A DNA stretch of 64,000 bases. Origin: Phragmites australis. Taxonomy: Eukaryota; Streptophyta; Magnoliopsida; Poales; Poaceae. Location of the stretch: contig NC_084937.1 in assembly GCF_958298935.1 (NCBI RefSeq), positions 29,645,568 through 29,709,567 of the forward strand, given 5' to 3'. This document shows positions 1-64,000 of the stretch, piece after piece (positions within the stretch are counted from its first letter, which is position 1; each line of letters begins with the position of its first letter). Below the pieces are notes generated by a model, which searched no databases, had not been told where the DNA came from, and saw only the letters and a program-made list of their open reading frames with translations. A program made the translations under genes and the position numbers.

Positions 1-109
1 ACATCATATGTATCTGATTTAGAAAAAAAATTTCATCGCAACGTTATGGCTTATTTAATATAATATTTTCATGTAAAATATATGTGGTGTAGAATTGGGT
101 GTAACATAA

Positions 110-545
110 AAAATAACTATGACAATAAATTTTCATAACGTCTGAAACATTAAATTTGAACATCTGAAACATTATAAATACGAAAATATATGATTAACTC
201 AAATAGATAATTTTTTCGGATTTGAATCTATAAGGAAGAGATTCCAGAATGCAGCATACGAAAATAACTATGACAAAAAAAATATAACATTTAAAATATT
301 AAATTTGAACGTCTGAAATATTAGAGATGTGAAAATATAGGAATTAACTCAAATGGATAATTTTTTCGGTCCGAATCTGTACGCAAGAGATTTCGAGATG
401 TAATATACGAAAATAACTATGACAACAAATTTTCATAACATTTGAAATATTAAATTTGAACGTCTAAAACATTAAAATTATGAAAATATAAAAATTAACT
501 CAAATAGATAATTTTTCTGCCCAAGTGTAAGCGGGTCCAGTCAAA
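110..545. repeat. About 150-bp tandem repeat, three units
   Basis: Three AT-rich units start near 110, 261 and 410, each opening with AAAATAACTATGACAA. Each then has a TTAAATTTGAACRTCTGAAA-like stretch and a TCAAATRGATAATTTTT stretch. The same array recurs in the second copy near 60702-61137. I see no coding potential. Confidence 0.8.
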
Positions 546-1242
546 ATGTCCGATGTGTCCAAGGGCCGTACCACAACATTTCCGATTCACGAAACAACAC
601 CGAAATTACAGCGCTCCTCATTTCCCCCCTCTTCTATTTTTTTTTCCAGAGTTTTCCCCAAAAGCAAATGACCGACTTACCCTTTACTGTTTCTCAGACT
701 CATTAATATGCAATCTGCTGGATCTGTTTAGGCTTACTTAAATGGAACTCGTATTTGTCCATTTATCTATTTCTGATGTCTCTTTTTTCATCTGCGTGTG
801 TTTTGTTTAGATGGGGCAATTTGTGATGTCTTTGTTTAAAATGCACAGAAGGGGCCCAAAAGGAGGCCGGTGTGCCTTGCAGGAACAATTTGGTCATTAA
901 AAGGCATAGAGAAAAATAGAAGAGTGGGAAAAGGAGGTGGGGTGCTTTTTTGAATCCATATTTGGTGCTTACAGTGCTATCTCATGAATACACCACTTTA
1001 GGATGCTATATCCATAACAGCAACAAGAAAGAGTGTTGTTTTCTGAATTACCCCCACGACACACTGGTCTTTGTTACTTTTTATTTTATTACTAAATAAT
1101 TGCTCGTATGTTGCAACGGGAATCAAAAAAATTTACGAGATAATATAATTTAATATGTATAGCTAATGCAAAATAATAGTTTAACTGACCAATGACTTAC
1201 GAATATACATAGCTCCCCAAATTCCATCAACGATCATAATCC
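546..1242. other. Non-coding flank upstream of the hAT element
   Basis: No gene is recognised. A 62-codon open frame at 553-741 is low in information, resembles no family I know, and is repeated with the duplicated block. The sequence is ordinary AT-rich intergenic DNA. Confidence 0.5.
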
Positions 1243-1610
1243 TAAAGATGTCTATATGGACCGTGCCTACTGGGCCGGCCCGAGGCACGGCACTGTAGGC
1301 ACGGTCCGGCCCGAGCCGAGATGGGTCGGGTCGGCACGGCACGAGGCCACGGGCTGTGCCTAGGCCGAGCGCGTGGTACGGCGGGCCGGCACGGTACGGC
1401 CCGGTCGAGTTGGGTCGGCACGGGCACGGCCCGGCTCGAGCACGAGCGGCCCAGGAGGCACGGCCTGGGAACGCGGCGGCCCGCACGGCACGGCACGGCC
1501 CACCGCGCGGGGCACGGCCCGGCCGGCACGTGGGGGCACGACGGGCCGGTGGGGGCACGCGAGGGCACACGGGTTAACGGGTTAAACGGGCCGGGAACAG
1601 CCCGTTTAAC
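1243..1610 (+). repeat. GC-rich hAT subterminal region
   Basis: The stretch is packed with GGCACGGC, GGCCCG and CGGCACG motifs in both orientations, sharply unlike the AT-rich DNA on either side. Dense short subterminal motifs that bind transposase are a hAT hallmark (Ac-type elements). The probable 5' end lies near TAAAGATGTCTATATGG at about 1243, but I could not find a matching inverted end on the right. Open frames on both strands here are by-products of GC skew. Confidence 0.6.
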
Positions 1611-1695
1611 CCGATATTTTTGAATTTTATAGCCGTTTTGTGACCGTTTGAGCTCAAAAAATTCGAAAAGAATTGTAAAAATCACCATTTTTCAC

Positions 1696-1704
1696 CTATA
1701 AATA
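1696..1704 (+). promoter_or_regulatory. TATA box of the hAT transposase gene
   Basis: CTATAAATA lies about 300 bp upstream of the transposase ATG, just after the GC-rich subterminal block. A pyrimidine-rich leader follows. The same box is present in the second copy near 62288-62296. Confidence 0.6.
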
Positions 1705-2005
1705 GAGGAGCACCCTGTCCTTCCATTCCACATCAGCAACACTATTTTCTCTCTTGTTTCCTCCTCTCATTCTTGTCTCAAAGTTCTTGAGAATTAGCGA
1801 TAATTTGGCAAAATTAATTTGAATTGTTGCAAAAAAATCCGAGCAATTCCAAAACCGTCATCCTGCTGACTTGCTATCTTGAAGTTGAAGAAATCTTGGT
1901 GATTTTTTTGCATCGTTGTTGAGTCTTATTTTATTATTAGTTTTATTACTTGATTATTTCTAACTCTGAATATTTGCAATTTTTTAGTGTCATTCGACAT
2001 TGATC

Positions 2006-4990
2006 ATGGATGCCGGTGATCATGATACATCCATAGATCATGATTTTTTTCTCCAAGGACTCACAGAGGACTAAGGCCCCTTTGATACCAGTGTTGCAGG
2101 TGATGATGGACCCGACGGTGAACCTCTGGTTGGTTCACATGCAGGTGATGCAGCAGCAGTTCCATCGTCAGGCTCTACAAGTGCGCACACATTAGCAAAC
2201 ACCGGGTCTAAAAGATCAAGAGCCGGTACTTCCGAAGTTTGGCAAGACTTTGAAAGGTTCTACAAAGAGGAAGATGGGGTAAGTGTCAGGTATGTTAGGT
2301 GTTTTATTTGTAAACATGAATTATCTGCAAAACCCTCGGGTGAAACGGGGCACTTGAAGAGGCACGCCACAAGTTGCAAGTGAAAGAGTGGAGCAGCCAT
2401 GAAGCAGGCGGTGTTGCAGTACAACCCTGACGGCTCTGTTCGTCATTGGGAGTACGACTCTGCCAATGCTCGAAAAGAGCTATGTCGCTTCATTAGAAGA
2501 GCGAATCTACCACTCAATATCGGTGAGTCTGCTGCATTTGAAGATTACATTAAGCAAGCTCATAATCCTAGGTTCACGCATGTTTCTAGACAGACAACTA
2601 GTAGGGATATGGTAAGATACTACAATACGTGTCGTAACAAGCTTAAAGAAATGTTGCAAATATGTACATTTTCAGTTGCTTTGACCTCGGACATATGGGC
2701 AGGTAGGGCTAGAGAGGATTATCTTAATGTAGTTGCTCATTTTGTTAATAATGATTGGGAATTAGAAAAGAGAATAATAGGTTTTCGTTTGATTGACAAC
2801 GCGCATACCGGTGAAAATATTGCTGAAAAAATATCTCAAGTAGTTGCAGACTTTGGTCTCACGAATAAAATATTTTCTATCACTTTAGATAATGCCGGTG
2901 TAAATTCTAGAGCAATGGATATTCTTACTCCATTGTTTAGTACCTATGCTGAATCTTTCTTGTTACATCAACGTTGTGCTTGTCATATTATCAATCTTAT
3001 AGTAAAATCCGTTTTGAAGAGGTTGTCACGATACTTAGACGATTTTCGTACTGCAATATCTTTTGGAAACTCCTCTAACCAACGAATTGCAGCATATAAA
3101 CAGTATTGTGTTGCAATAGGTGTGCGTCCACGTAAGTTTACTCTGGATATGCCGATGAGATAGAACTCTACTTTCTTGATGCTTAAAAATATTATACCAT
3201 ATAAGAGCACATTTGATGTGTTTATTCATACACATTACCATCAGCATGAGGGTCAAACTTTACTCACAGAAGCGCATTGGTATGTTGCTGCAAGGATACT
3301 GGAGTTTCTTGAATTTTTTTATAATTCAACTGTGAGTTTATCAGGAGTTTATTATCCAACATCTTGTTTAGTAGTGCATAATATTGTTAAAATTGCTACT
3401 CATTTAACAACTATGAAAATAACAATCTTCTAAGAGATTGTGTAGTTCCTATAAAATCTAAATTCTTAAAGTATTGGAAAGAAATTCTTTTGTTATACGC
3501 TTTTGCCTTTATTTTAGATCATAGAGCTAAAATTGTAGCTTTTTTAGAGTTCTCGCAATTCTAGGTGATGCTCTTGGCCACGATTATTCTAATTATTATA
3601 CTAATGTTCGTTCTTGATGAGGACATCCCTTCCAACGATACAACTACACCTACTGCACAACAAGGACCAATGACAAGAGCTCGGGCACGACAACTCAATT
3701 ATCAGGTAAAGTCGTTCCTCGCTCTGAAAATGAGTTCTTCTTTGAATGGGGTACTACTAAAGTCTTGTGATGATTTTCTTATGCTTAGGAACATGGGAGA
3801 AGAACCAGATGACTCAAGTGTGGACGTCCACTTCAGACATCAAGATCTTCAAGCTGCAGAAGTTTGCACATCAGGTTCGGACATCAAATTCGGACAGCCA
3901 GGCTGGCCCAAATTGCTTGGCCCATATTTCTGGACTCCGAAGGTTGTTTGAGACCCATGAGTACTTGTTGGAAAGATCTTGAAGTCTACTTTCAAATGGA
4001 TCCAACCTCATTGTAAAACTCCACCGGAGCTGCTCAGAATCGACCAGAAGACGTTTAGACCTCCAGTCTTGGGCTGAGATCCTTGTATCGAGTTCAGCCC
4101 ACTAGGGGCCCATCTTGTGTTAGGGTTTCTTCACCCCACGCCTCCTGGCTGCCTTCTACCTATAAATAGAACCTCCAGCCGCCAGGAGCAAGGTTGGATT
4201 TTGTTTAGATGCAAGTTAGCTACTGCTACTTCCTTGTAAACGCGTGTCGATCAGACCACCCGATTCCTTGTAAACGTGTGTCGATCAGACCACCCGATTT
4301 GCTTGATTCAAGACCCCAACTTGTGATTCAGATCAATCCTTTGGATTTCATTCCGTGAGTTAGTTGCTTGTTCATCTTGTTCTTGCTTGTTCTCGATTGC
4401 TAGCAGGAGCAGCGGTGTTCTTGGCACGGCAAGAACATCACCAACGAAGACGGTGTACCTGTTGCTAAGGCGCATCCCCTTGTGATCGTTGTAGTCGGAC
4501 AGCCAACGTCGAATCCATCCCAAATCGAAGTTATCCCCAACTCTCATCGAAGGATCAGGAACAAACCCTAGTGGGTTCCATTAGTTCTAAATTATTCGAA
4601 GTTTATAGTAAATATGAAATAAAGTATGGTGAAGTTCGCCTGCAACAACCTCCACTAGCACCCACAACAAGTAAGAAGACGACAACGTGGGAGAAAATAT
4701 TTGGTGCAGGTTCTTCATCAAGAAGTTCAGACTCTTCGTCACGATCGTCTACGGGCACCGGAATTCCAACATCCGGAAGGAAGCTAACTACCTTCATCGA
4801 CAGTGACGTTATCGGCCACAAACAAGAAAACTTCAACATACTGCAATGGTGGCATGAGCACAAGACGAATTATCCAGTACTTCCACTGTTAGCGCGAGAT
4901 TTGTTAACGGTTCCTGTATCTACAGTTTCTTCTGAGGCTGCCTTCAGTCTTACAAGAAGGATAATCGAAGAGAGAAGAACAAATCCGTGT
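2006..4990 (+). pseudogene. hAT transposase (zf-BED, RNase H-like, hAT dimerisation), broken, copy 1
   Basis: This is a remnant of a cut-and-paste hAT transposase. From ATG 2006 the frame has a BED zinc finger at about 2237-2383 (CFICKHELS...HLKRHATSC). The catalytic region follows (VALTSDIWAGRAREDY, FSITLDNAG, HQRCACHIINLIV). The C-terminal hAT dimerisation region lies at about 4590-4978 (YPVLPLLARDLL, VSTVSSEAAFSLTRRII). Lesions seen: in-frame TAA at 2072-2074, in-frame TGA at 2381-2383, a TAG replacing the Trp codon of MPMRWNST at 3161-3163, and a frameshift near 3420. A solo LTR is inserted at 3615-4583, and similarity is lost after about 4985. Copy 2 shares the first two stops, so the gene was dead before the duplication. 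No functional protein is expected. Confidence 0.9.
3615..4583 (+). mobile_element. Solo LTR (Ty3/gypsy type) inserted in the hAT transposase
   Basis: The hAT reading frame breaks off after ...NVRS at 3614 and resumes with KLFEVYSKYE at 4589. The 969-bp insert is flanked by a 5-bp duplication, GTTCT (3610-3614 and 4584-4588), as expected for LTR-element integration. The insert starts TGATGAGGACATCCC and encodes in its first part GPMTRARARQLNYQV, a motif I know from the C-terminus of grass gypsy polyproteins. It also has a TATAAATAG box near 4161 and a 31-bp direct duplication at about 4234-4298. Its right end (..CCATTA) lacks the usual CA, so the exact right border is uncertain. Reading it as a solo LTR whose 5' part overlaps the pol C-terminus is inference. 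Confidence 0.65.
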
Positions 4991-7863: not shown

Positions 7864-8656
7864 GGCCGCCGATCAGCACGCCAAGCTCAAATCACCGTTG
7901 CGTCGCGCAAATCTTGGGGACGGGAAGGAAGCGGGACCAACGAACCCTAGATGGAAAGGGTGCAAGGAGACCACGACGGCGACGCAATTGTGCGGGGGCA
8001 GGAGGGGGTAGCCGTAGGAGGCTGGAGTGAGGCCGCCGGTGATGCGTGAGCTCGTTGATTGTCAAAACCCTAAAAAAATTTCCCATCTCCCTCTTTTTCT
8101 CTCTTCTTCCTCTCTTCAACCTCCCCACCTCCCGTCTGCCACCGCCACCTGCCGCGCCGCGCCGCGCCGCGCCGCGCTGTCGCGTCGCCGCACCAGCAGT
8201 CCTCGCGCCCCGTGCTGCTCGCGCCATCGCCTCGCGCCCCGAGCCACCTCGCCCCGCACGTCACCCGATCGCCGGCCTATATAAGGGGTCAACAGTGCCT
8301 TTCCCCCCTCACACCCCCTCTCTCTCCCCGAGCACTCCGCCGCCTCCCTCCGAGTGCTGCCGCTGGTGAGCCCCTCACGGCCCCCTTCTCTCCTTCACTC
8401 TCCCTCCTTTCCCTCCCCTGTGGGCGTACCTGGCTCCCTGCTATCGTCGGCCACCACTCTTCCTCCGTCGGCCGCCACTCTTCCTCCGTCGGCCGCCACT
8501 CTTCCTCCGCCGGCCGCCGCTCTTCCTCCGTCGGTCGAAGCCGCTTCCCCGCCGCCGGCCAGCTCCGCCCCCGCCGCCGGGCCGCCACCGCCGCCCGCGC
8601 CCCTTCTCTCTCTCCCGTTCTCTCTGCTGCCCGAGCCGCCCCTCTCTCTCTTTTAT
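7864..8656. other. GC-rich leader of the CID gene and LTR-like promoter block
   Basis: From 7864 to about 8070 is the GC-rich 5' leader of the minus-strand CID gene. The plus strand then has a TATATAAG box at 8278-8285 followed by a pyrimidine-rich leader and a repeated (G)CCGCCACTCTTCCTCCGTC unit (about 8452-8540). The DNA to the right of the MULE (17807 onward) appears to continue it, so the pair may be one LTR split by the MULE. The long open frames on both strands here are by-products of high GC. Confidence 0.45.
8648..8656. repeat. MULE target-site duplication, left
   Basis: CTCTTTTAT, identical to 17798-17806. Confidence 0.9.
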
Positions 8657-8930
8657 CGGCAAATTTGGGAATTTAGACGATATACGCGACCGTATTTGCG
8701 AAAATAGATAACATACCGACGTATTTGTAAATCTAGCACTCGTATTCGGTACCTTAAATTCCGAAATTTGGCTTTCGGTAACTCAGATTCCGAAAACACC
8801 CCGGACCCACATATTTCGGCAATTGAGGTGCCGAATACGACACTGTGCACCGTATTCGGCATACAACAGTGCCGTATTCGGCACCTCAGTTGCCGAAATA
8901 TGCCGGCCGACCGACTTTTGCTGCGTCGCA
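8657..8930 (+). repeat. MULE left terminal inverted repeat
   Basis: It matches the reverse complement of about 17465-17797: GGGAATTTAGAC, ACGCGACCGTATTTGCGAAA, TTTGTAAATCTAGCACTCGT, TTCGGTAACTCA and TTCCGAAAACAC occur in the same order. The inner part repeats the GCCGAATACG / CGTATTCGGC pair and can fold on itself. Weaker similarity continues to about 9100 (GATGCTTTCG, CAGCAAAG). Confidence 0.9.
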
Positions 8931-9225
8931 TCAATCTCTTTTCCGTCACATCAATCATTTTTCCCTTCCCTCCCATGATGCTTTCGACCGGTGCATGCAT
9001 TTGTTGTTTTGGCGCCACACGCGGAGAGATCGTTGCTCTGCTGAATAAATTGAGGTCGCAGCAGCAGCAAAGCAGAGAAGGGAGAAGAGAAGGGAGCAGA
9101 GGAACACGAGAAGCATCAGCAGAAGAGGAGCAACGCAAGCACTTAATTAGCTTTCGTACCAGTTAGTCCTTATATTACATATTTAATACTTAGGTTAGTA
9201 ATATTATTTAGAGTAATTAGTTTAT

Positions 9226-9780
9226 TTGGTTAGTCCGTTTCGAAGTAGATTGTTTAATCCGTTCAATTACATTTTTTAATTATATTAATTTGATAAATTA
9301 GAGTACTTTGATTATATAAATTAGATTATTTAATTACGTTATTAGAGTACTTAGAGTTTAATTAGAGTACTTAGTTTATTTAATTAGAGTACTTAGATTA
9401 TACAAATTAGATTATTTAATTACGTTATTAGATTACTTAGATTAATTAATTAGAGTACTTAGTTTATTTAATTAGAGTACTTAGTTTATTTAATTAGATT
9501 ATTTGGTTAGTCCGTTTCGAAGTAGATTAGTTTTTCGAGAGTAGATTGTTTAATCCGTTCAATTATATATTTTTAATTATATTAATTTGATAAATTAGAG
9601 TATTTTGATTATATAAATTAGATTATTTAATTACGTTATTATAGTACTTAGAGTTTAATTAGAGTACTTAGTTTATTTAATTATAATACTTAGATTATAC
9701 AAATTAGATTATTTAATTACGTTATTAGATTACTTAGATTAATTAATTAGAGTACTTAGTTTATTTAATTAGATTAAATG
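9226..9780. repeat. 277-bp AT-rich tandem duplication inside the MULE
   Basis: The unit starting TTGGTTAGTCCGTTTCGAAG at 9226 recurs at 9503. Both units are built from short repeats of TTAGAGTACTTAG and TTTAATTACGTTATTAG. The surrounding 9.15-10.05 kb is AT-rich with no gene and forms the leader of the PMD gene. Confidence 0.8.
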
Positions 9781-10077
9781 AATTAAATTATTTGATAAAT
9801 TAGAGTACTTAGATTAATTAATTACGATGCTTAGTTTGATTATATGAATTTGATTAGTCTATATAATTATATTATTTAATTAGTTTGATATCATGAATTT
9901 CTTTCAGCATTGTAATTAGATTGTGTCCTTAGTATAATTATATGAATGTCCTTATTCGGTAAAATTAGAAAAAATTACGTGTACCTTTGTTTAGCAGATA
10001 CAATATTATGAAGCTTGTAATATATTTTAATTTGTTGTTCACCTATTTGTTGAACCATGAAGCCTTAAATCATTATC

Positions 10078-12668
10078 ATGGCTCATGGTGGTCTTCCCGA
10101 GCTTCTTCAGCAGCGGTACGACGAGAACCATAGGGGAAGGATGATATTCACAGGACAGCAGGTACCACGTTTATATGTGCTATTTTATTGCCACGATAAT
10201 TTCGAACTAACTCTATATATGTATTGGATAACTCATGCAGTTGGGTCCGTTACGAGCCCGGAGTGTGCACAAGATTAAGGAGTTGGACCCTCGATTCCAC
10301 GAGCCACTCGCACGGGCGGGACTACTACCTTTCGCTCTCATGATGGCCGGAGCTCCCATAGAGGTCGGTGGTAGGACACCTCTGCCGGCGATTGATGAGG
10401 CACTGCTCACAGGTCTCGTCGACCGGTGGTGTCCTGAGACGCACACGTTCCACTTTCCTTTTGGTGAGATGGCTGTAACATTGAGGGACGTGGCCATGCT
10501 GACCGGGCTACCAATCAGGGGCGCCCCGTTAATAGTTTCGCGACCCGCAAGGGAGCAGTGGAAGGGTTATGTTGCGGATAGGTAATTATTTGTTATGTAA
10601 TGCACTTCAAATATTATAGTGCTATTAAAGCTTCATCTGACCATCTGCATCTTATAGGTTTGGTGTGCAATACGACGGGAAGGATGCTGGCCTCTCCATG
10701 TCCTGGGTTCATGGGCTCCCACAGTTCGGTCCATGCCCACTGGATGCGGACGAGGCTACACTTATGCAGCACTATGAGGTGTACTTGTACGTCCTGCTCG
10801 GAGGCATCATGTTCTGCAATACGGCAGGCGATTATGTCGTCCCCTATATTGTATGGTTAGCAGCCCACCTCGCGTCACATCCTTATGAGCCTACATCTTA
10901 CAGTTGGGGATCTGCAGTGTTGGCTGCAACCTACAGAGGTTTGTGTGATGCAACCCAGCGAATAAAGAGGAAGGCAACTATTACAGGGTGCATACACCTC
11001 TTACAGCTATGGAGTTGGGAGTACCTCCAGGTTTCCAGACCTTGGGTGCTTAAGTGCTACTACCCAGTCCACATCTCCGATGGCATTGCCGATGACATAA
11101 GGCCAACGATGGGGTATCGGTCGATTCATGCCAGGCTGAGATGGAGTCAGCAGCAAGACCATGGTAACTACTCCAGGGTGATCAGTGACCTGGACGTCCT
11201 CAGCACTGATCTAGTGGAGTGGGATCCATGGCGTATGGCACGAGTAGAAGAAATTGCAGATGGTGGACTCATCGCATCCTCTTGTAGCCGTGACGCAGAC
11301 TTATGGTTGACCACATGCTTCTTGTTGTACATGAACTGCGTGGAAGTATATTCTCCAGAACGTGTACAGAGGCAGTTCGGGTATCGACAGGTGGTGCCAG
11401 TACCACCACCACGAGACACCGGACGGGCGCACGAGTAAGTGTGTTATTGTATGTTGCCTTAGTACATTGGTTATCCATGTTAACAAATTATAACTGTTTA
11501 TGTCACGTACAGGAGGAGCTCACAGGGGGGTGGAGGCACGCGGAACTGGGCATCCAAAATGCCGACTACATACGGAGGTGGACAGAGTCAGCTGCGGTGG
11601 ATGTCATCATTACTGCTGGACAATACGACGAGGCCACGTACTGGGACTACCTTGCTTGGTACCGTCCGCGCACGCGTGCCACCTTACTCAGCGGACCTGT
11701 ACAGCCGGGCCCCAGACCCTTCCCCGAGGATCGTGCCCGCCTACTTCATGTTGTGGTAAGTGATGCGTTACTTATAATGGTTTTCTTTGGAAAATCTCTG
11801 TATTACTGACATGTCCCTCATCTTATACAGACTGAAGAGGCGTATGAGATGCATACGCAAGCGGATCAAGCTTGTGGGGAACCAAGCAGGTCATCATCGC
11901 AGAGGGATCGTAACCCTCTCCGGGAGTACATGAGGACAAGAGGATCCCGCTTCCTAAACGCTATATGTGGTCTAGGTGGGTGTGCCCCGCAATGGAGGGG
12001 GTACGACCAACCTGCCATGGACCCGTCTCGTGCCTCCCACAGCAGGCGGTCATCCAGTGCTCGTGAGGAACCCGTCCGGTCAGAATCACGACATACATCT
12101 TCAGCTTCGGCGCGTCATGTCTCATGTTCCGGTGCTGAGGCCGAGGAGTGCACGCAGCCTCCTGCGCCCGAGCAGTTTACGTTGGGTTCACTAGCACCTC
12201 CGGCTACGATGACACCTCCGGCTGCAGCATCTACTCATCAGGAGGACGTCGTTGACTACACGCAGCAGACCCCTTGCTGGAGCGACCCAAATGCTTTTGA
12301 CTGGGCTGCTGCAATGCATGCGACCGCCACCTTCACTGATCTACTCGGCGGACAGTCCTCCCAAGATCTCGATGAACCTGGAAGTTCACATTGGTACCAA
12401 CATGGAGCCTTCGGCACACTGGACTCCATCGGAGCACGTTCTAGGGCCATCCACACTTCCGCACGAGGATCCTTCGGCATGGTACATGCAGGGCCGAGTT
12501 AGCGGGGCGGGATACACGTTCGGTGGGGTTCCCACAGGGCAGGCAGATGATGATGAAGACGACCAAGGGCACGCAAGGCAGGGGCCTGCGCAGGCTGCTG
12601 GGATGAGAGCCACACACCCGCCAGACGCTTACACTCCTGGGGATTGTGTGAGGCATCGTCGCCGTTGA
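10078..12668 (+). CDS. Plant mobile domain (PMD) protein carried by the MULE
   Basis: PMD proteins include the plant MAIN/MAIL1 nuclear proteins (transposon silencing, genome stability) and many transposon-borne relatives. Exons: 10078-10161 (MAHGGLPELLQQRYDENH), 10241-10581, 10658-about 11434, about 11513-11755, and 11831 to 12502 or beyond. Splice sites are canonical and introns 1 and 2 join in phase. The domain runs through exons 2-3: FHEPLARAGLLPF, THTFHFPFGEMAVTLRDVAM, GLPIRGAPL, then a LLGGIMFCNTAGDYV region. The tail is Ser/Pro-rich. Oddities: the best donor at 11435 (phase 2) does not fit the best acceptor before EELTGGW (11513), although an earlier donor at 11388 would. The last frame ends at 12502, while another frame carries on plausibly to 12668 (GDCVRHRRR), suggesting a frameshift at about 12375-12500. 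The gene sits just inside the left TIR, like mudrB in MuDR. Assignment to PMD is firm; a role in transposition is inference. Confidence 0.85.
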
Positions 12669-12934
12669 GTAGCCAGGGCAATTTGTCATGACACATGTAT
12701 TATTGATTTTAATGTCGAGGTCATCCCTATTATGTCTTATTCACTGTATTGTTAATGTAAGAAATTCTCAGTACAGAGGAAACAATAGTAGTTGTAAAGC
12801 ATAAGTAGCATGGAACCCGGTACAGAGGTTACACATAAAGAGCAGACAACAACAAACATTAGCATGTATGATACGCCTAAAGAACATAATAACATGCCTT
12901 AAGGGAATAAAATATACAGGGTTACAATAGATGC
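12669..12934. other. Spacer between convergent MULE genes
   Basis: This short AT-rich spacer holds the 3' ends of the PMD gene (plus strand) and the Myb/SANT-like gene (minus strand). No other feature is seen. Confidence 0.5.
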
Positions 12935-13916
12935 TTAGGGCGAAGGAAAGTGGCGACGCAAATTAGCGTAAGAATTCCAGGTGTGATGGTCAAAGCTATC
13001 CGGGTAAGATGATTGTCGTCTCCGAGGTGGTTCTGGGAAGTTGTAAAAATGAGTACGAGCAAATCCATCATTATTTTCAGGGTCATCGGTGTCCTCCGGA
13101 GATGGAAGCCTCGGAGGGCGGGGTCGTTGTGGCATGAAATTGTCGTCGTCGTCATCATCTTGAGGTTTCTCCGAGGTGGTACCACGTCCTATTTCCCTAT
13201 CAGTTGTATGGCATCTCGATGTTGTGCGTGAACGTCCTCTTGCAGTGTTCCTAGAACCTTCTCCTGTATTTCTGTTGGAACGTCTAGGCATGGGGGGCAT
13301 GAAATCGTCATCGTCTTCGTCCTCGTCATTATCTGGATGATTCGTAGAGGTCACCTCTGTACCCCTTTGGTTCGCTGACTGTCGTCGTCTTCTACGCGAA
13401 CCAGGCATCACACCCCCGCCGAAGAGCATATACATCGCCAAGAAGTGTGAGATTTCTTTGTTGATCAACTGTTCGTCTTCCGGGAAAGCCTGACGCAGAA
13501 GAGGACCGTTCGAATCAATGGAAATAAGATAAGTAGGGTGACCAAATGTTTATATAACATACCTGAATATGGGATGCATACTGGTCCGGCGACATTACTA
13601 TCGTTCTTTGCCTCCTAGAGAAACCTATCACAGAAGGATGGTCGGCCAGTTCGCGGACCCTCAGATACATTTGACGCCGGTGATACAAGAGGGCCCTAAG
13701 GTCCTCGGTGGTTACACATTGGAGCGGCGCGGTTAACCTAGAACATATGGGTCTTGCATGCAATTTCGCCACGGCTTGGATTATGTTGTTCTCCTTTAAG
13801 GGATCATCGTTTCCTTCACGCACAACCTGTAAGGAGGCATTAAGTGCTATAACGATCGTTGAAGGTGTCCATGGAAAGCCTATACTAGAGGATCCCGCCA
13901 TAGATTTCTTGCTCAC
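12935..13916 (-). CDS. Myb/SANT-like protein with acidic low-complexity tail, in the MULE
   Basis: Two exons, 13916-13563 and 13489-12935, joined by a canonical GT-AG intron in phase 0, encode 302 residues. Residues about 12-150 (FPWTPSTIVIALNASLQVV, RALLYHRRQMYLRVRELAD, TIVMSPDQYASHIQ, then AFPEDEQLINKEISHF and a YMLFG motif) follow the plan of the Myb/SANT-like domain that accompanies Harbinger-type transposases. The rest is low-complexity: two Asp/Glu runs, each followed by FMP, amid Arg/Ser-rich stretches (GEGSRNTARGRSRTTSR). The gene lies downstream of MURA on the same strand and converges on the PMD gene. It could be a DNA-binding accessory protein of the element. Family assignment rests on motif order by eye, so it is moderate; function is unknown. 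Confidence 0.65.
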
Positions 13917-14180
13917 TGACTACAACGCTCTGTCTCTGCATCAAAACACGGATCCATGAATATTTAAGAAACACGAAATAAATAAATAAAATTATATTTA
14001 CAATACAATGGTCACTTCTTGTCTAAAGGGGTACAGTGCAAACCACATAATGCACAATAAGTAGTACAACTAACAGGTGAATAACATTTTACAATACAAA
14101 CCATTTATGCGGATAGCTTGTAAGAACAAAATAAAATGCAAAGTCTCTAAGACAGTTTAGTTCGACAGTGGGCTGATAGT
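13917..14180. other. Spacer between MURA and the Myb/SANT-like gene
   Basis: AT-rich spacer of 264 bp. It presumably holds the MURA 3' end and the leader of the next gene. No distinct signal is seen. Confidence 0.4.
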
Positions 14181-16776
14181 TTACTGACGGGTCGGGCAAG
14201 TCCTCCTGTCATGGCCAGGTTGTTTGCAAAGTTTGCACCTGCGTAGGCCATCAACAGCATCTGCTTCATCCATGTCACCTTGCAGCCTCGTAGATCTAGG
14301 CCTTCCAGGATCTGTGCGTCGTGGTCGTGGATAAGGTACCCACTTAGGCCCCTCGATCGATTTGTAGTTGGTTCCGATGTTAAAGGACCGCATCTTTGGA
14401 AGCCATGTGCTCCTCAATGCATCGATCGTGAAGTACGGTGATACGTACTGTGATCCGTCATTGCCACCTATGTCCCTGCAAGCGGCTAAGACATGCGAGC
14501 ACGGGATATGGTGCAGTTTTGGCTTATTGCATGTGCACTTCACCTCGTTAGGTCCAAGTTGACATTGCTGCACGGTGTCCCCGGAGCTATACCCTGAAGC
14601 ATACCTACGGTGGCACATGACCTCAAAGTCATTGTTGGCCAGGTCGTAGATCCTCGACCGATGAAAGTGTGCCTTGCTCCTCCTTCTTGATATGATTTGC
14701 TCCACCTTAGGTGCAAACCGTGTGCTGCACTTCATAGCAGCATTACCACGGTCTCGAAAGTAGTCCGCCGTTCTGTAGAATGTGAGCTCAATAATGGCAC
14801 ACAACGGGAGGCCCCGTACTCCCTTTAGGACATTGTTGAACGCCTCCGCTATGTTCGTTGTCATGATGGAGTACCTAACATGGGATACAATAATTTTAGA
14901 ATGGCTATTTGCATAAGAATCGGTACAATATGATCTTTACAATTCTATGCGCTAACCTAGCACCATGAGTGTCATGGATAAGGGCCCAACGCTCCGCCGG
15001 CTTCCCCGCTATCCACTGGCTAAATGTACCACGTGAACGACTAACGATAGTTTGACCCCCAACTATTTGCGCCCGCAGTTGATCCTCCCCTGCTTGCTGG
15101 TCTGCCATCATCTTGCGAGTGGTCTCATTTAACTCTCTCCATATCTCATTGAACTTCGCCTGCTGGTTCTGAAGACATAGCCCTTTGAATCTCTTTACAA
15201 GCGACTTGCTGTGGTACCTTGTGTACAGGTTCGCGCCCAAGTGTCGCATGCACCATCTTCTCTCCACATCAGGCCATGCAATGGAGCAGTTTGTGCTATC
15301 ATGCAGCACGTCCAACGCATGCAGAAGACCCTTGTTGCGGTCTGAGATGACGCAAACTCGTTCCCTATTTCCCACGACACGTGTCCTCACCAAGGTGAGG
15401 AACCACAGCCAACTATCATTGTTTTCACTCTCAACCATTGCAAAGGCGAGAGGAATGATCTGATTATTTGCATCCGCCGCCATTGCTGTCATAAGGGTAC
15501 CATGGAACTTGCCGCTCAGAAATGTGGCATCCACGCATACAACCGGCCTGCAATGCCTGAATGCTTCGATGCATTGTCCAAAGGACCAGAATTACCTAAT
15601 GAGGTATCGGTCAGTGGTGCTATATGACCCATCATCTAGCCTGATCGGCTCATCCGCCATGGCCCACTGAGTCCCTGGATTCGTCATGGCAATCTTCTGC
15701 AGCAACCTCAGAGCATTGTTATATGACTCTTCGAAGCTTCCAAATAGCATCTTCAACGCCTTCTGCTTCGCTCGCCACGCGGTGTGGTAATTGATAAGCA
15801 TGCCAGTCTTAGTGTGCACCTCCCCCATAATCGATTTTGGCGACAAACAAATTTCCGTGCCAATAAGCGTGATGAGGAGTTGGGCTACGAACCTCGCATC
15901 AACGGCGTGGCTCACATTCCTAATAGCCTCTTCGCTGCATGTATGTGGGGTGTGTCTACTGATCACAAAATAGTTCTCATATTTCGGCTGATGTGCTCGT
16001 ACGAAGTAAGGGCAATTCGGGTGCTTGGTACACCTGACCTCATACTCCGTAGGGTTAGACCGGGCGCACTTGTGGTCCCTTCTTGTTATTACAGCATAGT
16101 TGCTAATAAAGTGGATGACCTCCCCTCTGTTACGAAATTGTTGCCCGACCTGAATGTCGCTATTCTGGTATCCCCAGTTTGATAAGGTGTTATACTCAAC
16201 GACGACACACTCCAGGAGCCCAGTACCACGAAAGTACTGGATCGCCGGGACCGGGTCATCATTGTTAGTAGCTTCTTCATCCCCGCTACCACTGTCTTCA
16301 TTATCCATGCATCCTGCATCGACCTCACAAGGGTCCACTCTACCTCCCTCTCTACTGGAACTGCCCTCCCCGACATGCCCTCCATCCTCTTCATGCATCA
16401 CCTGCTGGCCTAAGCCTTCCACAGTGGTCACTGCATCACCTTGCACCAGTCGTGACACTATGTTTACGTACACCGCCATATCAAAGTTCTCCTCCAATGC
16501 CTTGCGTGAGTACAAAGCCCATGCGTTGTTCCTACTCATCTCGAACAACGTATGGACAACGACCGAGCTATTTGGAACAAGCCGCGGCCGTACACCCTCT
16601 AGGACAACAGTATGGGACTGCTGGTTCACACGCAAAAGGCGCATAATATGTGATTTCAGGCCATCTAGATCAATAGGTACCTCAACCGAACTCTCTATGT
16701 GCTGGCAGTTCTGAATTGTTACAAGTCTCCCGTGCAAAACTGTGGGACGTTCTCCATAATAAATATGGAAAATCAT
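14181..16776 (-). pseudogene. MURA-type MULE transposase, one internal stop codon
   Basis: This enzyme cuts the element out and inserts it elsewhere. Exons 16776-14957 and 14874-14181 join by a GT-AG intron in phase. The frame is 838 codons including one in-frame TAA (15592-15594, codon 395) between DRYLIR and FWSFGQCIEAF. Domains: N-terminal region with an acidic linker (about 145-190), MuDR DNA-binding region (about 210-300, FRNRGEVIHFISNYAV, CPYFVRAHQ), and a DDE catalytic core with candidate residues D416 (CVDATFLSG), D479 (VISDRNKG) and E617 (TTNIAEAFN). A SWIM zinc finger follows at about 720-734 (CTC...PCSH), and a CCHC knuckle at the end (CKLCKQPGHDRRTC). Except for the stop, the whole frame is open. 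It is transcribed inward from the right TIR. A sequencing error or read-through could rescue it, so I call it a pseudogene with reserve. Confidence 0.88.
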
Positions 16777-17340
16777 ACCGTATCTCCTAAATAAATGTAC
16801 ATGTAATAAATAATAAGTACAAAAATAATACTAATTAAATAGTGCAATATACAACTAATATGCATCTTTGTTGCTACTGGACACTATCTTCTACGGTTCT
16901 ACCAAACCTAAGTGATTAAACTAATTAATCAAGTTAATTGATTAATTATATTACTTTAATAAAACTAATTACCTAGATTAAATCACGTAAATTCATGTTA
17001 CTATATTAAGTAAAGAATCTAATCACACTTACTAATAAAAATTATATAACCCAACTAAATCAATAATTTAAATACTCTAATTTATCAAAATAATATAATT
17101 AATCAAATGTATTTGAATGAATTTAACAATATACTGACGAAAGGACTAATATACTTCTGAACGAACTAAGAAAAATCTAATTACAATTACTAATTAACTA
17201 CGTAATCTAGGAACTTACCTTAAGGAAATTGAGCACGGCTGCTGCTCGCGTTGATCCTCTCCGGCTGCCCCCTCTGCTCGAGCTGCTTCTCCTAGCGTTG
17301 CTCCGCTGCTGCTCTCTTCTCTCCACTGCTGCTCTCTTCT
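16777..17340. other. Leader region of MURA inside the MULE
   Basis: AT-rich sequence (16800-17200) followed by a CTCTTCTC-rich tract (17270-17400). The tract mirrors the AGAAGGGAGAAG tract inside the left TIR, so inverted similarity reaches about 450 bp inward. Minus-strand open frames here are not convincing genes. Confidence 0.5.
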
Positions 17341-17464
17341 CTTCTCCCTTCTCTCCTTTGCTGCTCTCTTCTCCCTTCTCCATTCTCTCTTCTGCGAGCC
17401 AGGGCTTTTTATTAAGCGCAAAAGCAGCATCCCGCTGGCACGCACACACCGAAAGCATCGACAC

Positions 17465-17797
17465 GACGTGAAAGCGACATGATGCACTGAATTCGGCAAC
17501 TGAGGTGCCGAATACGGCACTGTGGGCCGTATTCGGCACCTCAGTTGCACAGTGCCATATTCGGCACCTCAGTTGCCGAATACAGGGTGTTTTCGGCAAT
17601 TGAGGTGCCGAATATGGCCCACAGTGCCGTATTCGGCACCTCAGTTGCCGAATTCAGTGTTTTCGGAATTTCAGTTACCGCAAACCACGTTTCGGAATTT
17701 GAGTTACCGAATACGAGTGCTAGATTTACAAATACGTCGACATGTTGTCTAATTTCGCAAATACGGTCGCGTATGTTGTCTAAATTCCCAATTTGCC
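17465..17797 (-). repeat. MULE right terminal inverted repeat with internal hairpins
   Basis: Inverted partner of 8657-8930. It contains a perfect 22-bp inverted repeat (17496-17517 with 17527-17548, 9-bp loop) built on GGTGCCGAATACGG. Further copies of the same arms at about 17555-17660 allow several alternative hairpins. Confidence 0.9.
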
Positions 17798-17806
17798 CTC
17801 TTTTAT
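17798..17806. repeat. MULE target-site duplication, right
   Basis: CTCTTTTAT, identical to 8648-8656. Confidence 0.9.
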
Positions 17807-19040
17807 CTCTCTCTGTGTAGCTGATAGGTGGGCCCCGTTTTTAGCCGAGCCGAGCCACCCACCGAGCCCACCAACAGCTGAGCCAAGTTGCTTCTAGAGC
17901 CGAGCCGTGAGCCGCTGAGCCAAAAACCGAGCCGAGCTGCTGATCCCGAGCCTGAGCCGTGAAGCCGAGCCCAACCCGAGCCGGCTCAGTAGAATATTTC
18001 AGGAATATTCTCCTCTTTTCTTTTTTTCTGAATTTCTCTTCCGGCAAAACTTCCGAAGCCCGCTTCTCCTCCGTCCTAACTCTGTTTTCAACGATTCTTC
18101 CACCGATATTCATCTAAATTCGAGATCTATGCAATCATGTCAATTTCATAATTTTTGTAAATTATTTAGTCCTTATTTTAATCATTTGATTAATCGTGTA
18201 TGCCTTTATCGTTGTTGCGATTATTAGAGAAAGCAGCATTCGAGGAAGACCTCGAGGACCCAGAGTTTTAAAAAGGAGCAGACGAGGACTTCAATGAAGG
18301 CAAGTCCTACAACCGTTGATCATGTTGATCCTATGTTTTAATACAACCCATAGAGCTGTTGTTTCAAACAATAGCATTATGCATGATTAGATTAATAGTT
18401 GTGATTTTTAAGAAATGCTAGAATAGTTATGGCCCAGCTTGTTTATCCCATGCCTTGTCATTGTTACCTTTATTCCGTTGAAACCCTAGAAGGTTCCCAA
18501 CATCAACTATAATGATTGTTTGGATGAATGCTTGTTTACTAGTATGCTTAGGATTGCTTTGCTCAAAAGAAAGAACTAGATTATTTACATATGATAATCA
18601 TGCTTTTCAATGTGAAGTGATGTGTGCTTGGTGCATGTGCGTGTAAAACTTGTGTTCTTGGGAAAACTCTAGAGTAGTGTTGACGAGGGTGAGTAAGGTG
18701 CCCCACAAAGGTAGGAACTACCTTGGAGCAAGGTTCGCTTTTATGGTGTTTTTGCTGGGAGACTCTTGCCTCGGTCGTATAAGGACCGGTTCGCTGTGAC
18801 ATCTCACCTAGTATCCACTCGTACAACCACATGACCTGTATGGGCAGGACTTGACCTAACCCCTCTGACTTAGTACGGTACCCACACGGAGGGCGGTAGT
18901 GGCAATGGGGACCAGGAGAAGACTTGGGTGGTGCGTAGCCCAAGGTCCGGCTGGTGATATTGTTAAGGCTATGTCAAAGCCTTGGGATTGCTAAGTGATC
19001 ATTCCCATGAATCTTCTAAGGCCCCTGGTATCTTAGTGCC
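17807..19040 (+). mobile_element. Ty3/gypsy LTR remnant, downstream part
   Basis: No open frame of interest. The GAGCCGAGCC-rich start, the GAGGAAGACCTCGAGGACCC stretch followed by GCAAGTCC, and the long T-rich middle are the style of grass chromovirus LTR 3' halves. It is joined directly to integrase sequence at about 19040, so an internal deletion has removed the rest of the element. It may continue the LTR-like block left of the MULE (8080-8656). Confidence 0.5.
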
Positions 19041-41540: not shown

Positions 41541-44500
41541 TGTCACACCCAATTTTAACGGACCAAACCAGATGCGGCTTATGTGTGTCCAGGATGTTTA
41601 ACACACATAAGGACGTCACAGGTGAAGTAAGAAAAGCAATATTTTTATAGAATAAATGTTAAACTTATACAAAAATTGATATATATTGTCTTCTATGAAG
41701 ATATCTGCAGCGGAACAGAAGCACTGGTGCCCAACAACACCACAGGCAACTGATTGGGAGACACGCGTCTAGGACGTCACAGCCTCATCTTGATAGCCTT
41801 CAACATCTTCACTCACTAAGCAGCACCACACATGTCGCATGGCATAGGAAAAATAGCATGAGTAAGCATATGACGCGCTCAACAAGTGTGGGAAAGATAA
41901 TGATATGAAGGCTTATATCAAGAATAGGCTAACACATGGTATATTTGCGTAAATGCGAGTAATGAAAAGATATTTGGACTCAAAAAGCATTAAACAATTA
42001 TTAAGTGAATGTAACCCATACAGTGCAACATCCAGCGTACAAGGCTTCCCACCTTGCACACCATAACCGTCTAGTACTCCCTGTACTATAACAAGAACCA
42101 TAACCAAACCTATAACCACAACCCATTAATCATGTGAGGATCTAAGTCTCCCATAACCGCGAGCACGACTGTTATAATAATTTTACACTTTGTAGAGGTT
42201 ATCTAACTTTTAGCCATGAGTCGTGATTTCAATGTTGCCATGTTCATGACACACTTAACACACGCCAGTGGTGCGTCGCCAGGAGAATCACTTCGAAGCA
42301 TGGTCCATCAATTAGGTCCTGATACTCCAACGAATGCCAGCTAGGTGTCTAATTGATATGCTAAGCCTTACCCATATCAGCCTCGTGTTTGGTACAGTAT
42401 TTCTTGTGTTGTCGCTCCACAAACCAGTCTTTATATGTGTCACTTGGGCAAAAACTATCCAACAGGAAAATAACCAACAAAACCTAACATCTCTACTTGA
42501 AACATATCCACAAGCCCACCACATAAACCACCATTATCAAACCAACAGGGAAATAACCAACAAATTTCTTGGAACGTATCCACAAGCCCACCACATGAAC
42601 CTCCATTATCAATCCAACTCCTTGCCCAACTCCTAGGGTTCCATGTTACTAAAACAAGTTCATCATCTCCGTTGCATATATCCACTAAACATGTATATGA
42701 CACTTCCCAACATCCCAAAAACATGGCTAAGCAAATGTACCCAAGAGACTCATATCAACTACCACTTAGGCTTCAAACAATGTAAAGGAAGAACTAGGTA
42801 AACCCTAACATAGGTGACTATCCATCAAGTTGGCAGACATTGTATGCAATTTTGTAAAACAAAACATTTAAAACATAGGTTTAAGATGATCAAGGACACT
42901 TGCCTTTTACCCAATGCTGCTCAGTGTTGACGAACCTTGGTCTTGAAGTCCCTCGAACTGCTCTGGAACGTTATCGACTAATCACGAGAACAGATGCAGC
43001 AATGAAGACACTCGCATTCCCAGAGATTGGCTATAAAATTTGAGAAACCATTTGAATAGAGACGTTCATATATCCTGAGAACACAACGCTACGGCATGGG
43101 TTTTGATAGATCATCCCCTGAGAGGAAGAATGATCAGTGGAGATGAGATGGGTGACGGTTGCAACTTGTTGTGGTTGGCAATCGCGTTCCGATCGTGTCG
43201 CTGCACAAACAGGGATGGGCTCCTAGGTCACATACAAAACTCGATGGGACATGCTGTGACGTGGTTGGTGCATCCATACGGCTTTTGGATTGACAGTGAA
43301 CGCAAATGCAAATCCGGTGTGTGTGCAGAACGCGTCTAGAAACCGGACAGCAGGCATGTCCACCTTGATCCTCGTGGTTTGGCTGCTCTATTGGCCGACC
43401 TGGTCGGTGAGGGTGTGGGTAACATCATGGGTCATGCACTAGTGAAAGGGCATGGCGATTTGACTTCTGGTCGGCCGGGAACGTCAATGCCAATTGGCAA
43501 TGGCGCGGCTGTCCGCGACGGCGACGACCGTGGCGATGTAGATCGGGCTTTGGCTGGAGTTAGGGCTTGGCTAAGGACTTAGTATGATAGTAAAACAATA
43601 GTAAGGGAGGAGAAGAAGGGGTCCTCACCATGCTTCGATGGTCAAGGAAGGAGGATTCATGTAGACGACGACGTAGCGCATCACAAGCGGCGGCGGCGGC
43701 GACTCTGGTAAATGACGGCGCACAGGCAGGGCAGCAGCGGCGTCTAGAGCTTGGGATGTGGAATAGGGGTAGGAGAGGGTGTGCAACTCCTATTTATAGG
43801 ACTAGGGGCGGCTGCTTAAGGTGGAGTCCAAGCCAGACACGAATTGGATTCGAGTTCAAGTCAGTTAGGATTTCCTTTTTTGTAGCTCTCTATTACGAGG
43901 ATGATATCGCCACAGTCCAGACTCCAACTTGGACGTTTTTGTACTCTAAATTGTATTACTTGAAAAGATCTACAACTTTCGAATTCATTGGAACTTCTGA
44001 AAAGGCCATATTGATTTTCAAAAATACATCACAAGATAAACTATTTGAAATCAGACTTATCTACGCAGCACTGATTTCGAGGGCCATAACTCCTAGCTCT
44101 ATTGTCCAAAAGGGGAGTTTCATAGGTTCAAATCGAATCTCTCGATGGGACCTACAACTTTTGTATTGTCAAGATTTGCATTTGAGGCCGTTTTGAACTC
44201 CGAAACTTCATGTGAAGATGAGGCTGTCCAAGACTCCACGAAAATTTGCAGATTTCGTGGATCCTTTGTGTTGGGCCTTCTAGAAGACTTGGCTAAGAGT
44301 TTGGACTTGAGCAATATTGAGCCTAAAGACACTTTAGGTATATTTAGGGTTTAGAAAAGAGACTTTCGCAGAGAAATTTGAATAGAGTTTGAATTTGAAT
44401 TGAGCTTGGAGTGAATTTAAGAGAAACAAAAAATGAGGTTGAACGAAAATAGGAGCAGATAAGGAATTTGAATTTGGATTTGAGTAGAATTTTAGAAATA

Positions 44501-44871
44501 AGGATTTGGATAAGATTTTAATTGAACTACAAAAGGATCAGGTATGATCAAGGATTGAATAGATGATGAATTCAAGGATTTTGAATTCCAACCATTAAGA
44601 TCCTTAACTAGTTTATTACAAAGTTTCGTAAAAACCTTTTTAAAATCTTTTTCACTCAAAACACCAAAGAGAAAGAGAAAGAAAAAGAAAAATAACTCTA
44701 ATGCATTTACCTAGCTCCTAACAAAACTCAGTATGCAATGCACACAAAATAATAACCTATTTTGATTGATTGATTAAGAAAATAGGTTTTAAACCTGTGC
44801 TACTGGTGAAGCTATTTAATAATCTTAGAAAATTTTAAAAAGTTGTAAATTATGAAAATCAGGGTGTTACA
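41541..44871 (-). mobile_element. 3.3-kb solo LTR, minus orientation, nested in a related LTR
   Basis: On the minus strand it runs TGTAACACCCTGATTTTC (44871) to GGGTGTGACA (41541). Flanks are CCCGG (41536-41540) and CCCGA (44872-44876), a 5-bp target duplication with one change. It has no internal coding region, so it is a solo LTR. Its 42.0-42.9 kb part is the reverse complement of sequence related to 46.2-46.9 kb, so host and guest LTR belong to related families. Open frames inside are not genes. Confidence 0.75.
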
Positions 44872-44885
44872 CCCGAGCTTTCCTC

Positions 44886-44888
<3 letters not shown>

Positions 44889-44935
<47 letters not shown>
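44889..44935. repeat. (CT)n microsatellite
   Basis: About 47 bp of almost pure CT dinucleotides in the LTR leader. Confidence 0.95.
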
Positions 44936-44937
<2 letters not shown>

Positions 44938-50422: not shown

Positions 50423-50696
50423 GTGGTATAACCTCCTTAGAAGCTTCCCTACGTTGGCTAAAACCATGACAATAGCGCAAATATAATGCGCCCTCCGCTC
50501 CCTCACGGCCGAAAAATGTTAGGGGGTCGGGGAGTCATGGAGCCAAAAGGCTTGGCCAATCCTGCACAAGTTGCAGAATTTCACTAGCTCCAAAAGGCTT
50601 GATCGATCCGGCATAAGTTGCAGAATTTCTCTAACTCTGTGAAAACACATTATTTTCAAAGAATTACAGGATCGGTGCAAGAATCAATATCCACCG

Positions 50697-52060: not shown

Positions 52061-52326
52061 TGGCCCTCGCAGCCCTGTGACAGCCACGCCTCCATCGAGT
52101 CCCACCGTAGTGGCACTCCGAGTGATGCAGCTCCTTCGGGCCACGCTACCATTGCCCCTGGTGTGCAACCCCGAAGAGCTTTGCGACACTTCACTCCTTG
52201 ACCTAGACGTCCACATCAGAGCGGTAGGGAGCGATCCGGGATAGCCTGGCTTCAAAAGGGTTGGAGCTAGTTTTATATACATCCGTCCATCCCTCAGGAC
52301 CTCGGAACTAGCGGATGAGGGGGTGC

Positions 52327-63500: not shown

Positions 63501-64000
63501 TAGAGCAATGGATATTCTTACTCCGTTGTTTAGTACCTATGTTGAATCTTTCTTGTTACATCAACGTTGTGCTTGTCATATTATCAATCTTATAGTAAAA
63601 TCCGTTTTGAAGAGGTTGTCGCGATACTTAGACGATTTTCGTACTGCAATATCTTTTGGGAACTCCCCTAACCAACGAATTGCAGCATATAAACAGTATT
63701 GTGTTGCAATAGGTGTGCGTCCACATAAGTTTACTCTGGACATGCGGTGAGATGGAACTCTACTTTCTTGATGCTTAAAAATATTATACCATATAAGAGC
63801 ACATTTGATGTGTTTATTCATACACATTACCATCAGCATGGGGGTCAAACTTTACTCACAGAAGCGCATTGGTATGTTGCTGCAAGGATACTGGAGTTTC
63901 TTGAATTTTTTTATGATTCAACTGTGAGTTTATCAGGAGTTTATTATCCAACATCTTGTTTAGTAGTGCATAATATTGTTAAAATTGCTACTCATTTAAA
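60593..64000 (+). repeat. Long direct repeat, copy 2 (partner 1-3408)
   Basis: Near-identical to the window start, in the same orientation. It includes the 150-bp tandem repeats (about 60702-61137), the non-coding flank (61138-61834), the GC-rich hAT subterminal block (about 61835-62202) and the transposase. It runs off the right edge before the place where copy 1 carries the solo LTR, so presence or absence of that insertion cannot be compared. Confidence 0.95.
62599..64000 (+). pseudogene. hAT transposase, broken, copy 2 (truncated by window edge)
   Basis: Same gene as 2006-3408, starting at ATG 62599. It keeps the BED finger and the RNase H-like start, and shares the in-frame TAA (62665-62667) and TGA (62974-62976) of copy 1. 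Where copy 1 has a TGG-to-TAG change, this copy keeps the TGG but has a short deletion just before it (DMR then TGA at about 63748-63750), which shifts the frame. The next segment (LKNIIPYKSTFDVFIHTHYH) is present in another frame. Thus the two copies decayed separately after duplication. No product is expected. Confidence 0.9.

Follow-up and report, generated by a model that had tools for sequence, protein, structure and literature searches.

Plant mobile domain (PMD) genes have been reported in most members of groups 47-50 of the plant Mutator-like elements (MULEs), sometimes to mostly in antisense, and "in antisense for most" of the MUDR group (PMC6446971, a 2019 survey). MULE-captured PMD-C genes were reported in several grasses and in Amborella, with an anti-silencing use that was "tempting to speculate" (PMC5418596, 2017), and counter-silencing by PMD proteins encoded by transposable elements (TEs) has been proposed (PMC8616336). 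For PMD proteins of the host, roles in transcription and silencing have been reported (PMC7156037, PMC9899485). The published ideas on why plant MULEs keep PMD genes, which turn on counter-silencing, are speculative. Here we describe a complete MULE in a 64,000-nucleotide stretch of Phragmites australis (reed) DNA (NC_084937.1, positions 29,645,568 to 29,709,567; hereafter the window). Between matching terminal inverted repeats (TIRs) it carries a PMD gene, a small gene (SML), and a gene for the transposase MURA, and this trio recurs between matching TIRs across the reed genome, with purifying selection on each gene.

Several described MULEs are close to the reed element. In maize MuDR, mudrB, the second convergent gene, is reported to be needed for insertion (PMC9168764; Gao et al., 2022). 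The reed element is likened to MuDR by layout only, in that the transposase and a second gene lie on opposite strands; it differs in that the second gene is a PMD gene by Pfam, a third gene lies between, and the layout looks derived in the reed lineage. Abermu type I, which has been reported from Triticeae and Poeae only, has three open reading frames (ORFs), with the transposase (826 aa, against about 837 codons here) and ORF2 on one strand and ORFR on the other, which is the layout of the window copy (PMC9168764). By description only, Abermu also resembles the reed element in its TIRs (138-145 bp), 9-bp target site duplication (TSD), Ka/Ks below 1, and closeness to MuDR. ORF2 and ORFR are assigned no domain, and the main text of that paper mentions neither PMD nor a mobile domain. 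A second reed layout, with all genes on one strand, is unlike Abermu type I. VANDAL21 (Hiun) is likewise a three-gene MULE (VANA, VANB, VANC) with motif arrays in its non-coding parts; VANC21 is reported to bind short motifs that are arrayed in the element's own non-coding DNA and evolve by tandem repetition (PMC5735166). Sequence-specific binding has been shown for VANC, whereas for the reed element it is proposed here, and Pfam assigns no DUF family to SML or PMD.

Groups 46-50 of the 2019 survey share with the reed element a MULE transposase with SWIM, TIRs, a 9-10-bp TSD, and, in the MUDR group, mostly antisense PMD; group 42 also has an "unknown ORF" (PMC6446971). The table of that survey names no Myb/SANT-like or GRF-like third gene, and the available part of it compares no gene orders, tests no selection, and describes no palindrome array. 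Arabidopsis MAIN and MAIL1 (PMD-C) share the PMD domain but are host genes, and their DOWN motif CATGCAGTTT has no exact match in the element. A protein search with PMD returned grass proteins that join PMD with MULE or MuDR domains, such as the rice "Transposable element protein, putative, MuDR"; none of the 57 proteins at E up to 1e-40 bore an Eragrostis name. We found no literature linking the GRF zinc finger with Mutator transposons, and the literature on palindromic TIR binding-site arrays in MULEs, as far as accessible, gave no lead. PMD genes in MULEs, an antisense mudrB-like PMD, and three-ORF MULEs (Abermu, 2022) are thus already published; new, as far as the literature was searched, are the identity of the three genes, their persistence across a change of layout, the constraint on PMD equal to that on MURA, the variation in the third gene, and the palindrome arrays.

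The reed element and its genes

The TIR arms at 8662-8799 and 17657-17794 (138 nt) are 89% complementary. They are flanked by a perfect 10-bp duplication, CTCTTTTATC, which can be read as 9 bp if one end is shifted by one; in most sister copies the TSD is 9 bp. Long TIRs, a TSD of 8-11 bp, and a transposase with a MuDR DNA-binding domain and a SWIM finger identify the element as Mutator-like. The first-pass annotation, made from the letters of the window, had described matching TIRs, a perfect 9-bp duplication, and three intron-bearing genes, with PMD reading inward from the left TIR, MURA from the right TIR, and a Myb/SANT-like gene between. The TIRs and the layout stand, and so does the perfection of the duplication, but its length is 10 bp; three spliced genes could indeed be modeled, but an in-frame stop in MURA had been overlooked.

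Exon borders are splice models with GT-AG borders, drawn from sequence only. The PMD gene (10078-12502, plus strand) has five exons and an open frame of 697 aa; PF10536 scored 121.1 bits in one exon and 76 in another (cut-off 34.9), which places it in the PMD family. A frameshift at exon 3/4 was at first suspected and was ruled out by the acceptor of exon 4, chosen because it keeps the reading frame. The PMD leader contains GAGTACTTAG motifs, of which four of five type A copies (defined below) have 5-8 and one has 16; none of four type B copies has any. MURA (16776-14181, minus strand; two exons, about 837 codons) contains PF03108 (25.3 bits), PF10551 (71.9), and PF04434 (22.8), each above its cut-off, and a zinc knuckle that matches below the Pfam threshold. 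Its one in-frame stop codon (15592-15594) is a sense codon in all 16 other loci that are in frame there; a 17th locus, L014, is out of frame. Because the stop is absent from those 16 loci, the window copy is a defective member of its family, and the defect is probably recent.

SML (13901-12935, minus strand) has two exons and an open frame of 297 aa, and it is 95% identical to LOC133906738 of P. australis. Pfam assigned no family to it, and no Myb/SANT family was among the Pfam matches of six SML members at E up to 10, a search in which weak matches were possibly filtered out. The best VIA-align row for its predicted fold was the NgTRF telomeric DNA-binding domain (79 of 85 residues, root-mean-square deviation 2.9), followed by rows for ISWI and SNAPc; we take all three to be Myb/SANT domains. 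Foldseek listed no Myb match for the predicted fold, an absence that we do not count as evidence. The label Myb/SANT-like thus lacks Pfam support and is favored, not decisively, by the predicted fold. Pfam scans of the individual PMD and SML exons (E up to 0.5) returned PMD, nothing, or CDC27 (E 0.36), and no VANC-type DUF domain, which is presumably the hallmark of VANC anti-silencing proteins.

Recurrence, layout, and constraint of the gene trio

We searched one reed genome (848 Mb, 28 contigs) with each protein and with the TIR. Candidates were scored in part (PMD 144 of 3,477, SML 150 of 1,092, MURA 150 of 4,697, TIR 40 of 1,110), so the co-occurrence counts are lower bounds. The scored candidates included at least 79 close matches to PMD (87% identity or more), 76 to SML (80% or more), and 73 to MURA (92% or more), with these limits for type A set after the lists had been seen. 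At least 53 of the 79 PMD matches were accompanied within 8 kb by MURA and SML, each on the opposite strand; among the matches listed, 13 had neither and 13 only one. A MURA on the same strand lay within 9 kb of at least 64 of the 76 SML matches, at a distance of 1.3-1.7 kb in 63 cases (chance about 0.3%), and among the matches listed 61 of 62 type A PMD-SML pairs lay on opposite strands. Grouping the 40 best of the 1,110 TIR matches gave 33 elements, of which at least 23 contained PMD, at least 23 SML, at least 22 MURA, and at least 15 all three; three contained none among the matches listed. Sister elements with the same TIRs thus mostly keep PMD and SML, as opposed to the loss that the first-pass annotation had named as the sign of a one-off capture, and the three-gene lineage that it proposed recurs throughout this genome. 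Perfect TSDs in seven of eight complete type A copies (below), together with this recurrence, exclude chance: the element and its trio are real.

More distant matches were also listed. PMD matches of 73-79% identity had, among those listed, a same-strand MURA in at least 28 of 65 cases (two of which also had an opposite-strand MURA) and a same-strand SML in at least five. The distant SML matches (63-74%) make up 74 of the 150 scored; among the matches listed, 67 of the 74 had no scored partner, possibly through unscored candidates, and five had a same-strand PMD upstream. This set is likely to be a large, older subfamily with the type B order.

Twenty loci with flanks were chosen, non-randomly, among the PMD matches by hit shape; the layout counts leave aside L001-L009. 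Nine were type A (L010-L013, L023-L025, L028, L029), nine type B-like (L014-L022), and two a distant type D (L026, L027). Thirteen elements were complete, the partial loci being L007, L014, L016, L020, L022, L023, and L028. All eight complete type A elements, including the window copy, contained MURA, PMD, and SML at least in part, in the order TIR PMD> <SML <MURA TIR, and seven had a perfect TSD of at least 9 bp (L013 had none). All five complete type B elements had a perfect 9-10-bp TSD, MURA, and PMD, and four had SML (L015x did not); their order is TIR MURA> PMD> SML> TIR, all on one strand. In total, 11 of the 12 complete copies other than the window copy had a TSD of at least 9 bp. Type B and type A ends are 69-77% alike, in most cases across the outer 81-96 bp. 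In a further subfamily, B', represented by a single fetched locus (L040), the genes follow the type B order, and at least four further PMD matches have SML downstream on the same strand. Separately, L023 and G000:C10:33760490 are apparently the parts of one type A copy split by a nested insertion: some 12 kb of a single contig separates its PMD and SML exon 2 from SML exon 1 and MURA.

Because two sister subfamilies, B and the single-locus B', carry MURA> PMD> SML>, the trio has survived rearrangement. Synonymous divergence (below) puts type A nearest to B', where the genes are ordered as in type B. The simplest reading is therefore that the one-strand order is ancestral and that the MuDR-like layout arose in branch A, by parsimony over three subfamilies of which one is single-copy. 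PMD had been said to occupy the mudrB position; its antisense placement bears this out, but the likeness to mudrB looks derived, with two sister subfamilies keeping all genes on one strand.

We estimated dN/dS with our own Nei-Gojobori script from the longest high-scoring segment pair per gene and locus; copies recur across pairs, so that these are not independent. For comparisons of type A with type B, the median was 0.17 for MURA (72 pairs), 0.15 for PMD exons 2+3 (99), 0.43 for PMD exon 5 (90), and 0.37 for SML exon 1 (45). Four hand-chosen between-subfamily pairs gave 0.17-0.19 (MURA), 0.14-0.15 (PMD exons 2+3), 0.36-0.45 (PMD exon 5), and 0.35-0.48 (SML), with bootstrap ranges below 1 for all genes except in one short SML comparison (57 codons, 0.22-1.09). 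The same bases read one out of frame, in two control pairs also chosen by hand, gave 1.15-1.63. Within type A, the medians were 0.45 (MURA), 0.31 (PMD exons 2+3), 0.65 (PMD exon 5), and 0.39 (SML); within type B, SML gave 1.54 pooled, on very few changes. These ratios indicate that all three genes are under purifying selection between subfamilies, and that the PMD domain is constrained as tightly as the transposase and PMD exon 5 less. PMD, whose neutrality had been proposed as a test, is not neutral (about 0.15). One-off capture is rejected by the genome-wide recurrence of the trio, the TIR-anchored counts, and purifying selection.

dS was lower between A and B' than between A and B for MURA (0.17-0.26 versus 0.48-0.57 in the same exons), PMD exons 2/3 (0.37-0.47 versus 0.82-1.01, with overlapping ranges for exon 2), and SML (0.30 versus 0.52, with overlapping ranges). 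The lowest dS therefore falls on the same pair in all three genes, the kind of co-divergence that the first-pass annotation had proposed to look for. Between A and B, PMD dS (0.82 for exon 2, 1.01 for exon 3) exceeds MURA dS (0.43-0.57), for which we have no explanation; partial exchange of PMD between elements is possible. Trees were built for PMD and for one MURA exon from loci of this genome. Types B and C (the latter described below) were each well supported in both. Only the PMD tree separated a joint group of A and B (82/97) from C and D; the MURA tree gave no resolved placement for the type A rows, and its bootstrap had not settled. That types A and B each captured PMD independently and late is disfavored by the PMD tree and by the shared lowest-dS pair.

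Palindromes, third genes, and possible functions

Near their ends, the elements carry arrays of the palindrome TTCGGCA-N7-TGCCGAA. All eight complete type A copies have 5-8, with the spacer ACTGAGG or its complement and variants, and all five complete type B copies have 7-12, with CACCGTG or its complement and variants. Every one of them lies within 450 bp of an element end, and their number varies between copies and between ends. None arose in 2,000 shuffles of the window element's ends. In types C (three loci) and D (two loci), the stretches examined contained no such palindrome; L037 and L038 have CCGCCCTCTGAGAGGGCGG-like palindromes near their ends, L039, scanned in part, has no array, and L040 (B') has none in the fetched part, where no TIR was recognized either. 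Near one end of the type D element L027 (7225-7368) there are GTCACGCCA-N7-TGGCGTGAC-like palindromes. The arrays look like arrayed sites of a dimeric DNA-binding protein and are candidate binding sites for proteins that the element itself encodes; a hairpin or small-RNA role is possible.

The third gene differs in more distant PMD-containing MULEs. In type C (L037-L039), whose MURA core is about 45-50% alike, the order is MURA> PMD> followed by a short same-strand gene that reads as two exons with a GRF-like cysteine pattern. With its exons joined, the L038 gene has PF06839 as its best Pfam match (15.0 bits), below the cut-off of 25.9. The L037 gene lies inside an inverted-repeat pair; none was found at L038 or L039 within the stretch examined. 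In type D (L026, L027), the third gene lies on the opposite strand and contains several GRF-like motifs. At L027 it lies inside inverted repeats, and one piece has PF06839 as top match (21.8 bits, again below the cut-off); at L026 the third gene had no Pfam match, and the stretch examined had no inverted repeats. The other eight third-gene pieces of types C and D that were scanned had no Pfam match. The third-gene slot thus appears to vary, with a weakly GRF-zinc-ribbon-like gene in place of SML in types C and D.

We infer functions for PMD and SML, including palindrome reading and an anti-silencing effect, as follows, with somewhat less than even confidence in the whole. The window copy would be a defective member of an autonomous family whose intact form carries MURA, PMD, and SML, and PMD and SML would be accessory proteins working at the element's own ends. 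SML, with its predicted Myb/SANT-like fold and charged disordered tail, or else MURA, may read the subfamily-specific TIR palindromes, and PMD may act as a chromatin or transcription effector that keeps the TIR-driven genes expressed against host silencing, a role comparable to that of VANC in VANDAL elements. In branch A, PMD would have moved beside the other TIR and been reversed, giving a mudrA/mudrB-like layout by convergence. If PMD is an activator on the TE side, the TE-silencing role of host MAIN and MAIL1 would gain a transposon-side counterpart. A PMD constrained like the transposase, kept with a third gene through rearrangement in palindrome-ended elements, makes the earlier speculation testable at the bench. 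A bolder extension, which we consider unlikely, is an address code in which a small adaptor (SML in types A and B, the GRF-ribbon-like protein in C and D) reads the palindromes and brings PMD to the element's own ends, independently of VANC; adaptor and address would be exchanged together while MURA and PMD were kept. If true, it would amount to modular, sequence-specific self-activation in grass MULEs.

The constraint on PMD exons 2+3, which matches that on the transposase, would also fit a pair of transposition helpers, in which PMD and SML serve insertion, complex assembly, or nuclear import, as MURB might, and not expression. The reported need for mudrB in insertion (PMC9168764) and the mudrB position of PMD in type A speak for such helpers. 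The likeness to mudrB looks derived, however, because the position and strand of PMD differ between subfamilies, and the reported roles of host PMD proteins lie in transcription and silencing (PMC7156037, PMC9899485), so that we regard helpers as somewhat unlikely. Constraint centered on the PMD domain (exons 2+3 at 0.14-0.15 versus exon 5 at 0.36-0.45), together with the proposal of counter-silencing by TE-encoded PMD (PMC8616336), would suit a decoy that pairs with or displaces host MAIN, MAIL1, or PP7L and weakens silencing genome-wide without reading the TIRs. A decoy is doubtful, as it leaves no role for SML or for the subfamily-specific palindromes, and the PMD loci examined outside these elements (L001-L005, putatively host) share only 26-54% identity in matched stretches.

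It is fairly unlikely that SML has some other helical DNA- or protein-binding fold, with the trio working otherwise; the order of the fold rows, NgTRF and then ISWI and SNAPc, points away from this. That PMD and SML are passive cargo of the Pack-MULE kind is very improbable. MULEs do capture genes, L015x lacks SML, and three of the 33 TIR-anchored elements had none of the three genes among the matches listed, but purifying selection acts between subfamilies, the same trio is found in three subfamilies and two layouts, and type A PMD-SML pairs are almost uniformly on opposite strands.

Coordinates and other repeats in the window

Features of the type A element in the window (positions are those of the window)
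Feature	Position	Strand	Basis or remark
Complete Mutator-like element (type A), 9,140 bp	8658..17797	.	TIRs, TSD, sister copies with their own TSDs
Left target site duplication CTCTTTTATC	8648..8657	.	perfect 10-bp match to 17798-17807
Right target site duplication CTCTTTTATC	17798..17807	.	match to left copy
Left TIR region	8658..8910	+	outer ~140 bp 89% like right end; palindromes in inner part
Right TIR	17657..17797	-	complementarity to left arm
Palindrome TTCGGCA-N7-TGCCGAA, left 1	8815..8835	.	motif scan
Palindrome TTCGGCA-N7-TGCCGAA, left 2	8877..8897	.	motif scan
Four palindromes TTCGGCA-N7-TGCCGAA	17492-17512, 17560-17580, 17592-17612, 17632-17652 (span 17492..17652)	.	motif scan
AT-rich direct repeat in PMD leader	9273..9801	+	232-nt unit x2, 93%; GAGTACTTAG motifs in leader
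PMD exon 1 (ATG)	10078..10161	+	splice model
PMD exon 2	10241..10581	+	Pfam PF10536, splice model
PMD exon 3	10658..11434	+	Pfam PF10536, splice model
PMD exon 4	11536..11755	+	inferred acceptor, splice model
PMD exon 5 with stop	11831..12502	+	splice model
SML exon 2 with stop	12935..13489	-	disordered acidic/basic tail
SML exon 1, 113 codons	13563..13901	-	splice model; fold from AlphaFold, VIA-align
MURA exon 2 (SWIM, sub-threshold zinc knuckle)	14181..14874	-	Pfam, splice model
MURA exon 1 (DBD_Tnp_Mut, MULE domains)	14957..16776	-	Pfam, splice model
In-frame MURA stop codon, private to window copy	15592..15594	-	comparison with sister loci

Three other repeats were seen outside the element. 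Positions 1-3407 and 60593-64000 of the window are direct repeats 60,592-60,593 bp apart, with three long pieces 98-100% identical, and may stem from recent duplication, from one element or long terminal repeat having inserted twice, or from the assembly. A second set of long inverted repeats, with pairs of 184 nt (90%) and 234 nt (85%), spans 4.4 kb at 42287-46709 and possibly marks another TIR element. A tandem array at 50660-52064 has a unit of about 112 bp, with copies 60-86% like the reference copies.

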